Of a stretch of 64,000 nt of DNA, positions 47,868-49,568 are shown piece after piece (the first letter of the stretch is position 1; every line of letters begins with the position of its first letter). Source of the DNA: Bacteroidota bacterium (GTDB lineage Bacteria; Bacteroidota; Bacteroidia; B-17B0; Aurantibacillaceae). Position numbers and translations under genes: made by a program. The notes beneath the pieces are model-generated. The model was not told the DNA's origin, did no database searches, and saw only the letters and a list, made by a program, of their open reading frames with translations. The stretch covers positions 62,001 through 126,000 of the forward strand of contig JAJNDK010000007.1 in NCBI GenBank assembly GCA_021156365.1. Direction: 5' to 3'.

Positions 47868-48841
47868 TGGAAAACACATTTTCAAACAGGGTTGATCTTC
47901 GCGATATCAACAACGCTTCGGAAAAGATCAAAGCCGAAATAGGTAAATACATTGTTGGGCAGCACCAGATGACCGATCTTTTGCTCATTGCTTTGCTGGC
48001 CGATGGACATGTATTGATAGAAGGTGTTCCGGGAGTTGCAAAAACATTGACGGCTAAATTGCTGGCCCGTACTATCCATGCGGATTTCAAAAGGATCCAG
48101 TTCACTCCCGACCTGATGCCTTCTGATATTATCGGGACCTCTGTTTTCAATGCACAATCCAATAGCTTTGAATTCAGGAAAGGACCTTTGTTTGCCAATC
48201 TTGTGCTGGCGGATGAGATCAACCGTGCTCCTGCTAAAACACAGGCAGCATTGTTTGAAGCAATGGAAGAACGGCAGATCACCAGCGACGGAACGACCTA
48301 TCCGCTGGGTTATCCTTTTATGGTGTTGGCTACTCAAAACCCGATCGAACAAGAGGGAACCTACCGTTTGCCGGAGGCGCAGCTGGATCGTTTCCTGTTC
48401 AAAATAGAAGTGACGTATCCAGATCTGGCCCAGGAAACGGAGATCCTGAACCTGTACCACCTGAAGAAAAACACGGTTGATCTCTCTACGATCAACCAGG
48501 TGCTCAGCGGATCGGATATCAGGGCGCTGAGAGATACGATGGCCAATATCCATGTAGAGCAGAACCTGCTGAGATACATTGCCGAGATCGTACATGAAAC
48601 GCGTCACAATACCTGGTTGTTCTTAGGTGCATCCCCGCGGGCCTCCCTGGCTATCCTGAATGCTTCCAAAGCCTGTGCGGCCCTGAGAGGAAGGGATTTC
48701 ATCAGCCCGGACGATATCAAATATGTTACGCCGCATGTACTCAAACACCGCGTGATCATTACTCCTGAAAAAGAAATGGAAGGACTTACTGCCGGCGATG
48801 TGGTGAAGAAGATCATTGAGAAAGTGGAAGTGCCGAGGTAA
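47867..48841 (+). CDS. MoxR-family AAA+ ATPase
   Basis: 324 residues. Walker A GVPGVAKT (53-60), Walker B LVLADEINRAPAKTQAAL (about 113-130, D116/E117), sensor I ATQNP and sensor II region SPRASLAILNASKACAALRGRDFISPDDIKYV are complete. MoxR proteins act as chaperones that load or mature metallo or VWA-domain partners. Its start codon overlaps the DUF4350 stop (TAATGG). In most Bacteroidota clusters a DUF58 gene follows; here the downstream gene is an ORF6N pseudogene, so that partner is missing from the window. Confidence 0.95.
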   Translation: MENTFSNRVDLRDINNASEKIKAEIGKYIVGQHQMTDLLLIALLADGHVLIEGVPGVAKTLTAKLLARTIHADFKRIQFTPDLMPSDIIGTSVFNAQSNSFEFRKGPLFANLVLADEINRAPAKTQAALFEAMEERQITSDGTTYPLGYPFMVLATQNPIEQEGTYRLPEAQLDRFLFKIEVTYPDLAQETEILNLYHLKKNTVDLSTINQVLSGSDIRALRDTMANIHVEQNLLRYIAEIVHETRHNTWLFLGASPRASLAILNASKACAALRGRDFISPDDIKYVTPHVLKHRVIITPEKEMEGLTAGDVVKKIIEKVEVPR

Positions 48842-48842
48842 T

Positions 48843-48871
48843 CTTGAGGTGCCGGATTGGCACCTTTAAAG
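48843..48871. repeat. Extragenic palindrome upstream of the ORF6N gene, related to one inside it
   Basis: AGGTGCC (48847-48853) pairs with GGCACCT (48859-48865) across GGATT; CTT (48843-48845) and AAG (48869-48871) may extend it. Aligned with the internal palindrome at 49114-49140, 18 of the first 23 bases are identical. One paired position has changed on both arms (C-G to T-A), keeping the stem. It ends 33-39 nt before the ATG at 48905 and directly follows moxR. It could also act as a weak moxR terminator. Confidence 0.8.
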
Positions 48872-48904
48872 AAAAGCACCTGTTATAACTTATAGCTAAG
48901 CGAC

Positions 48905-49469
48905 ATGGCAAAAAAGGAAACAGCATTGATGATAGCCGATGAAGTGGTTATGAATAAGATCTACTACATCAGGGGGCATAAAGTGATGCTGGACAGTGAT
49001 CTTGCGGAGCTGTATCAGATAGAAACCAAACAATTAAAAAGGCAGGTAAAAAGGAATATCGACCGGTTCCCGGAGGATTTTATGTTTGAACTGACCGAAG
49101 AAGAATTTGAGATCTTGAGGCGCCAATTTGGCGCCTCAAGTTGGGGAGGTACAAGATATTTCCCAATGGTGTTTACAGAACATGGAGTACTCATGCTGTC
49201 GAGCGTTTTGAACAGCCAGAAGGCAATTTCTGTAAATATTCAAATCATGCGCATCTTTGCGAAAATCCGGCACATGTTGATGGATAATACCGAGCTCCGA
49301 CTAGAGATCGAGAAGATGCCAGCAAAAGGAAAGTAGATAACCAGAATCAGAACATAGAAGTGGTATTCCGATACCTCGACGAGTTGCTTGAAAAGAAGGA
49401 GCAGCTGGTTCCACGAAAAAAATCGGGTACAAACTGCCGGAAAAAAATAGCCAAAAACCTGGAAAATAA
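48905..49469 (+). pseudogene. ORF6N-domain (KilA-N-like) protein, disrupted by two single-base deletions
   Basis: The intact first frame (48905-49336) gives the ORF6N domain: KIYYIRGHKVMLDSDLAELYQIETKQLKRQVKRNIDRFPEDFMFELTEEEFEILRRQFGASSWGGTRYFPMVFTEHGVLML. It then shifts to an early stop. The normal C-terminal helix and basic end reappear in the other frames: KVDNQNQNIEVVFRYLDELLEKKEQLVPRKK, then IGYKLPEKNSQKPGK and a stop at 49467-49469. Restoring one base near 49318 and one in the A7 run at 49416-49422 gives a 188-residue protein of normal length. ORF6N is a phage-derived DNA-binding domain. The deletions may be real decay or sequencing errors. Confidence 0.85.
49114..49140. repeat. 27-nt perfect palindrome inside the ORF6N coding sequence
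   Basis: Arms of 13 bp (CTTGAGGCGCCAA and its complement) around T49127. It encodes ILRRQFGASS, the segment before the conserved WGG of the ORF6N domain, and is a close relative of the extragenic palindrome at 48843-48871. Confidence 0.9.
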
Positions 49470-49568
49470 TTCCCATACTGGCATAACAAACTATGATAAC
49501 TATTCGGAATTGTCTGTAATTTGTTTTATACTTTCTCAGCGGACTTTGCGGTAAAAAGGCGTTACATT

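Follow-up and report, generated by a model that had tools for sequence, protein, structure and literature searches.

ORF6N genes, and probably KilA-N and Bro-N genes, carry a predicted DNA target of their own protein in the codons of the DNA-binding domain

ORF6N genes have a DNA palindrome in the codons of their DNA-binding domain, which is very likely the binding site (operator) of the protein that the same gene encodes. The palindrome is conserved at the DNA level, covaries with the recognition helix of the protein and is predicted from that helix in further genes; nearly the same site occurs in two reading frames, and one class of sites is absent from genomes without ORF6N. The covariation with the helix, the prediction of bases by the code and the presence of the same palindrome in two frames make the protein's own operator the best reading of this site. 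In at least three phage-derived regulator families, ORF6N, KilA-N and Bro-N, the codons of the DNA-binding domain probably contain the protein's own DNA target, so specificity and target would form one recombinable unit with a readable code, perhaps defining immunity-like types, each of which would silence only copies of its own type, either resident or incoming.

The window, which is the whole stretch of 64,000 nucleotides analysed here, has an unsplit ORF6N gene on the forward strand (48905..49336), which encodes a protein of 143 amino acids. This protein matches PF10543 at residues 17-101 (E 2.2e-36, profile positions 1-86 of 86) and has no other Pfam domain; its PHROG annotation is anti-repressor, which is annotation only. 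The open frames of its relatives mostly have about 165-220 amino acids, and the C-terminal tail of the window protein, shorter than most, looks truncated; the domain itself is full-length. The region past the stop codon (49337-49545) resembles by eye the C-terminal tail of the relatives in another frame, and an open reading frame at 49360-49554 is listed downstream of the gene. The neighbours, which we take from their sequences to be a moxR-like gene on one side and a convergent MBOAT-like gene on the other, have adjacent homologues in a sister species (G047) with no ORF6N gene between them, so the ORF6N gene comes or goes as a unit. The ORF6N-free intergenic region after moxR in that species (L264) has, by eye, a different ACACAGAG-type repeat.

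Two palindromes are present at this gene, as the initial annotation described. The internal one is a perfect palindrome of 27 nucleotides (49114..49140, forward strand, centre at 49127) in the codons of I70-S79, with 13/13 pairs around a central T and half-sites within 49118-49136, and it is the predicted operator. The upstream one (48843..48871, forward strand) is imperfect and its centre is about 49 nucleotides ahead of the start codon; its best symmetric part is AGGTGCC-N5-GGCACCT at 48847-48865, being weaker outside, and its half-sites match the own type at 12/14 positions. By count, 18 of 23 aligned bases match between the two palindromes (alignment gives 80% over 25), and a double change of C-G against T-A is found at pair 6 from the centre. 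This change had been taken as an argument that the paired structure is maintained; it is weak alone, as one double change in one pair of copies, and the argument is carried by the comparison of 233 genes described below. In a genome-wide count of copies, the half-site pattern AGGNGCCN5GGCNCCT was found without mismatch at exactly two places of the 5.3-Mb genome, which are the upstream and internal sites of this gene. At up to two mismatches the pattern was no commoner than its control (74 against 100), so only the exact matches are informative. The upstream hairpin of the window is, as judged from its half-sites, a predicted own-type site. Synonymous recoding of the window palindrome codons reached 13 pairs in 0 of 200,000 versions and at least 11 pairs in 49.

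A palindrome in these codons is a trait of the ORF6N family. The genome of the window has four ORF6N genes with palindromes in the same codons, each of a different sequence, and those of L007 and L008 are imperfect, with 11/13 pairs each. The family comparison covered 233 genes, nearly all from Bacteroidota records; five hits with an unaligned centre or too near the locus end were left out, and loci L154-L182, which were brought in by the palindrome pattern, were excluded from the internal-palindrome statistics. Pairing is 73-99% at 13 positions, 60-70% at positions 14-15 and 12-28% beyond them. These genes have 152 unique 27-mers, one of which is misaligned (L259, with one pair) and was dropped from the mutual information, upstream own-match, recoding and half-site counts. 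The 151 unique sites have a mean of 11.74/13 pairs. Synonymous recodings, drawn according to codon usage and with the protein unchanged, have 5.46 +/- 0.13, and left and right halves joined across different ORF6N genes have 8.96 +/- 0.10 pairs. Perfect palindromes are 43 of the 151 sites, against 1 of 75,500 recodings. The palindrome is thus kept beyond the protein sequence, as had been suggested: synonymous recodings lose the pairing, silent positions take part in it, and the arms vary yet stay complementary. The peptide follows the DNA: four palindromes translate to LRSQIVTS, LKSQFATS, LRCQFGTS and LRRQFGAS, respectively. A common imperfection is an A.A mismatch at pair 6 (30/151 sites), and the imperfect sites count against the operator reading.

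Mutual information was calculated in 226 genes (Neff 93) between each position of the palindrome and the residues encoded outside it, with shuffles that ignore relatedness, so the Z-scores are inflated. Summed over positions, it is 0.74 at residue 42, 1.70 at residue 43, 0.79 at residue 45 and 1.99 at residue 46, and these four residues covary with palindrome positions 4-8. They belong to the predicted recognition helix (residues 41-50, codons at 49025..49054 on the forward strand), which is encoded about 30 codons upstream of the palindrome. The AlphaFold model (mean pLDDT 84.9) has a predicted helix-turn-helix, formed by helices 30-37 and 41-50, plus a long C-terminal helix. The values are at most 0.31 at residues 47-61 and reach 0.79 at residue 62 (codon at 49088..49090, forward strand; palindrome positions 5, 6 and 8), 0.46 at residue 68, 0.61-0.91 at residues 81-85 and 0.49 at residue 88; the scores of residues 68 and 81-88, which are near the palindrome, count against the operator reading. 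The covariation partner of the internal palindrome is, on these scores, its predicted recognition helix. The covariation proposed initially was between the upstream and internal palindromes, and across ORF6N loci it does not hold as a rule.

Residue 46 predicts base 4 of the palindrome in 213 of 218 ORF6N genes, five genes breaking the rule (the 218 are the 226 genes less five with a gap and three with Leu at this residue). Arg goes with C (73/75), Glu with G (64/66), Gln with A (61/62) and Lys with C (15/15). The sole exception among Gln genes is L008 of the window's own genome, whose internal site is off the code and whose upstream palindrome fits the helix. K42 occurs with G at position 7 in 174/174 genes, and residue 84 (Arg or Lys; codon at 49154..49156, forward strand) covaries with position 10, R84 being found with G in 150/152 genes and K84 with A in 55/56. 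Residue 84 adjoins the palindrome, so a protein-level coupling may be involved at this residue. In direct contacts with DNA, Arg or Lys prefers G, Gln prefers A and Glu prefers C, on either strand.

Viral contigs, phage scaffolds and plasmids, including those of Campylobacterota, Spirochaetota, Fusobacteriota and Bacillota, gave a further set of 40 distinct sites, to which the code was applied. If a centre up to 12 nucleotides away had at least two pairs more than the aligned centre, the best-paired one was used. At least nine pairs are present in 35/40 sites, of which 22 have A at base 4, nine have C and four have G; the other five were outside the code count, as was one more without a helix. 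Residue 46 predicts base 4 in 34/34 genes with a readable helix, two of which (L299 and L315) share a 27-mer with the first set, and K42 predicts G at position 7 in 12/12. Four of the five sites below nine pairs (L316, L332, L323 and L321) have a palindrome that is displaced by about five codons in the 3' direction, and they fit the code. One ORF6N gene with a 13/13 palindrome is on plasmid pTS1 of Treponema saccharophilum (L294), where its neighbours are a DNA methyltransferase and a winged-helix gene on one side and a restriction endonuclease subunit S gene on the other.

The association was also followed on a tree, for which the columns concerned were taken out of the alignment and five of the 226 rows were left out as too short. 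Residue 46 changes 58 times on this tree and base 4 changes 59 times. Supported independent pairs that contrast Glu with Gln go the same way in 8/8 cases in nearly all of 200 pairings, with none opposite (median p 0.008). For K42 and G at position 7, 7.5/11 pairs agree in direction and no pair is opposed (median p 0.016), and for R84 and K84 7.6/8 agree. The contrast of Arg or Lys with Glu or Gln has only four supported independent pairs (p 0.125), which are too few for significance. At a locus common to nine genomes, among them L122 and L127, both Flavobacteriaceae, helix and palindrome differ together, and all nine genes fit the code when compared by eye. Identity at this locus, as window means, is 0.86-0.91 at the start and 0.85-0.92 in much of the second half, is 0.55-0.80 in the stretch from helix to palindrome and drops again at the very end. 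In three genes of this locus (L069, L251 and L253), missense changes in one arm are offset by silent ones in the opposite arm.

Viral contigs have genes with the recognition helix ETRALKQ[AS]VKRN, spelled ENRALKQAVKRN in L325, in which nearly the same palindrome is found in two codon phases. The peptide over it is ...VSQNVIPP in one phase and ...LIT[NIF]CD or VITNCD in the other. Between the two groups compared (L318, L322, L325 and L326 against L316, L332, L323 and L321) the helix is the same and the peptide differs. In these viral genes, the DNA site is what is kept, and the peptide is not. Covariation with the helix, prediction on further genes and the two-frame palindrome all point to binding of the palindrome by the protein, which is very probable, as was initially suggested.

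Sites outside the gene follow a looser pattern. A core-type palindrome is found up to 250 bp upstream of the start codon in 63/217 genes, mostly in the last 100 bp, and 154/217 have none; downstream, 14/210 genes have one or more palindromes within 350 bp, with seven in one case. Over whole arms, the proximal upstream site is no more similar to its own internal site than chance (18.61/27 against 18.26 +/- 0.29 in permuted pairs; 54 distinct pairs). The initial proposal of an upstream hairpin covarying with the internal palindrome therefore fails as a general rule: only a minority of genes have an upstream site, and most of these sites vary without regard to the internal palindrome. That the upstream site faithfully copies the internal palindrome is likewise rejected as a rule. 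By half-site score, own-type upstream sites occur in 29/216 genes, one of which is the window gene, against 18.9 +/- 3.2 expected (p 0.002), a modest excess. Upstream sites of any class with a half-site score of at least 12/14 are present in 58/216 genes and 4/210 control stretches, and at 11/14 or more in 75 genes and 31 control stretches. Most upstream sites are off the specificity of their own gene, which would be odd if classic promoter operators were the rule and counts against the operator reading; these flanking sites may belong to paralogues or be left over from earlier specificities. Some ORF6N genes have beside them arrays of up to seven palindromes with different arms, at 325-574 downstream in L127, -512 to -299 upstream in L080 and -376 to -269 upstream in L141, counted from the internal centre. 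Donor cassettes for diversification were considered for these arrays and set aside, as no homology beyond the palindrome was seen by eye in the arrays printed, except for one copy in L109. This downstream copy is within a remnant of an ORF6N gene.

ORF6N is present in 62/87 genomes of the family and 117/395 of the phylum. A pattern for the TCA/TCG class of sites is found at four places in the genome of the window, all at ORF6N loci, and among the 87 family genomes in 50/62 with ORF6N and 0/25 without it; the reversed control was found in one genome. These counts reject a dispersed repeat (REP/BIME) for the pattern tested. Of 29 pattern loci fetched, 26 contain ORF6N or a part of it and three, from relatives, have no ORF6N within 3 kb. 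With the patterns tested, the genome of the window showed no regulon outside ORF6N loci, which counts against the operator reading.

KilA-N and Bro-N genes appear from their sequences to have the same architecture as ORF6N, which for Bro-N is indicated by pairing counts. In loci fetched by Pfam domain alone, those with short flanks being dropped (ORF6N 50/54, KilA-N 20/30, Bro-N 26/30 and moxR 29/30 used), a palindrome of at least 11/13 pairs is present in the domain region of 50/50 ORF6N, 16/20 KilA-N and 20/26 Bro-N genes, and in 1/29 moxR controls. The 800-nt control stretches from these same loci that have such a palindrome are four for ORF6N, none for KilA-N, four for Bro-N and five for moxR. 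With viral relatives, 79/80 KilA-N genes have at least ten pairs, the viral set being the best 80 of more matches, as is the genome-contig set; two hits were dropped, and one site with three pairs was removed before the covariation and pairing statistics. The centre of the KilA-N palindrome is mostly GAATTC and its arms are very diverse; pairing falls from 11.83 to 8.72 +/- 0.19 when halves are swapped between genes. Covariation is strongest 26-32 residues before the central Glu, where six of seven residues have 1.44-2.65, and is at most 0.63 between this cluster and the palindrome. Residues beyond the palindrome also reach 1.1-1.7, which counts against the operator reading. Viral Bro-N genes have at least ten pairs in 38/45 cases, against 39/360 codon-permuted versions; three of 55 loci without the N-terminal part, plus duplicates, had been left out, which left 46 and then 45 genes. 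Three Bro-N genes, presumably DinD-like (L413, L415 and L417), have even-centred palindromes, such as CCATTTTCCTGATATCGGGAAAATGGT in L417, a class distinct from the ACAAATTGT-centred Bro-N sites.

Beside a tyrosine recombinase gene, two ORF6N loci break off at the palindrome. An alternative explanation is that the palindrome is kept as an attachment site (attB) for integrative elements and is spread by hybrid junctions. A search of the 87 family genomes at 1e-30 found 26 integrase loci. For all seven integrases at least 73% identical to the query, that recombinase, a palindrome lies 246-257 bp ahead of the int start codon, and in six of the seven an ORF6N half abuts it, in both orientations; no ORF6N half was found at the 19 more distant loci of these genomes. 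The junction palindromes are hybrids, and the ORF6N gene is split at the insertion loci of this clade, which are in genomes other than that of the window (L339:1395-2798, L338:613-2880, L345-L349, L363 and L364). A phylum-wide search at 1e-60 found none, with four candidates scored per listed genome. The pattern is thus limited to one integrase clade, gives the host gene no clear reason to keep an attachment site perfect, and predicts neither the covariation with the helix nor the same architecture in KilA-N and Bro-N; as the reason for the palindrome, an attachment site is improbable. The seven palindromes and six ORF6N halves do indicate that the predicted operator is also the attachment site for one element family.

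Long self-complementary stems within transcripts, and the T-rich stretches seen by eye after some flanking copies, would suit an RNA hairpin, in which folding of the mRNA at this site would act on translation, decay or termination. In such a hairpin G.U pairs would be tolerated, but on the sense strand they are not favoured over A.C (40 G.T and 59 A.C in internal sites, 57 and 55 in non-coding copies, 19 and 17 in KilA-N), the region 48600-49500 of the window has no Rfam match at the gathering threshold, and the covariation with the helix is left unexplained. A structured cis-regulatory RNA is therefore disfavoured and very improbable. It is hardly credible that the palindrome arises at the protein level, from a peptide that touches the recognition helix together with codon bias. 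The second palindrome half does encode Gly, Ala or Val, which go with Arg, Glu or Gln at residue 46, but silent sites pair, synonymous recodings lose pairing, nearly the same DNA site is found in another frame over an unrelated peptide, and non-coding copies share the vocabulary of sites. Such coupling is refuted for the palindrome itself and may hold partly for residue 84. The protein could also bind the palindrome for another purpose, such as tethering or partition, as ParB does at parS, or recombination and spread of its own gene. Presence or absence of the single gene between loci, the arrays of copies beside some genes, and a helix-turn-helix with a long C-terminal helix that has weak fold similarity to RacA (Z 4.1) and pSK1 Par (4.0) are in line with this. 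The comparison with PDB structures also gave weak matches to Ski-like/Dachshund domains (6.1 and 5.5), granulovirus Orf22 (5.7) and Mbp1 (3.6); the weakness of these fold matches counts against the operator reading, and a sequence search of the PDB with the ORF6N protein found no relative (best E 0.8). Against another purpose, Pfam shows ORF6N alone in the window protein, the 154 genes noted above have no further core-type site upstream, and, unlike a homing nuclease target, the site stays intact within the gene. Binding for such a purpose is unlikely.

With the palindrome as the protein's own operator, each of its half-sites would be contacted by one recognition helix of an ORF6N homodimer. 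Positions 4-6 from the centre would be read by residues 46, 43 and 45 and position 7 by residue 42, and the wing residue 84 would probably read position 10. The dimer would bind within the reading frame that encodes it, about 195-225 bp downstream of the start codon, and would most likely exert negative autoregulation as a roadblock to elongation; genes with an own-type site in the promoter region, such as the window gene, could also be repressed by occlusion or looping. As the site lies in the codons of the specificity region, a recombination event that swaps the specificity would swap the site too. Protein and target would be inherited as one unit and could diversify while staying matched.

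A predicted target, which is read from their own gene and needs no experiment, is thus gained for families whose usual annotation is phage antirepressor or domain-containing protein. The ORF6N recognition code is directly testable, and a code for KilA-N is suggested; both could be a new source of orthogonal regulator-operator pairs. The peptide motif L-R-S-Q-x-x-T-S is explained by the DNA site from which it is translated. Here a palindrome in the DNA clearly constrains the sequence of a protein, and silent changes compensate missense ones. A regulator with recognisable sites mainly at its own gene family is also widespread, given its frequency in the genomes of the family and the phylum.

Autoregulation by itself would be ordinary. 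No described system is known to us whose target sits within the codons for its own binding domain and varies along with the recognition residues. A literature search on ORF6N, KilA-N, Bro-N, palindromes and intragenic operators found no such system among the papers listed, which is weak evidence of novelty as subscription journals are poorly covered. Autoregulated repressors with intragenic operators, and parS inside spo0J/parB of Bacillus subtilis, also have a palindromic site inside their own gene; their site is not known to lie in the specificity codons or to covary with the helix across a family, whereas ORF6N has both features.

The Bro network groups the same families, ORF6N, KilA-N and Bro-N, with others as domain-swapping phage regulators, and the accessible description of it does not mention self-encoded sites (PMC10111431). 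The stoperators of cluster A mycobacteriophages are repressor sites outside promoters that stop elongation, so both this stop and their diversifying immune specificities are similar to those proposed for ORF6N. They are asymmetric and spread over the phage genome, and the descriptions at hand do not place them in the codons of the DNA-binding domain (PMC9283540, PMC6550527). In the integration-dependent immunity of mycobacteriophage BPs, attP is inside the repressor gene and 33 C-terminal residues are removed, so, as the available account has it, an attachment site lies inside a regulator gene in both cases; it is the phage attP in BPs, whereas in ORF6N it is an attB in a resident gene, at the predicted operator of that gene (PMC4557955). 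Mutual information between recognition residues and site bases has been used in MerR regulators with Prot-DNA-Korr, where, according to the text available, the sites are aligned as separate DNA motifs, whereas the ORF6N site is within the codons of the regulator (PMC5045206).
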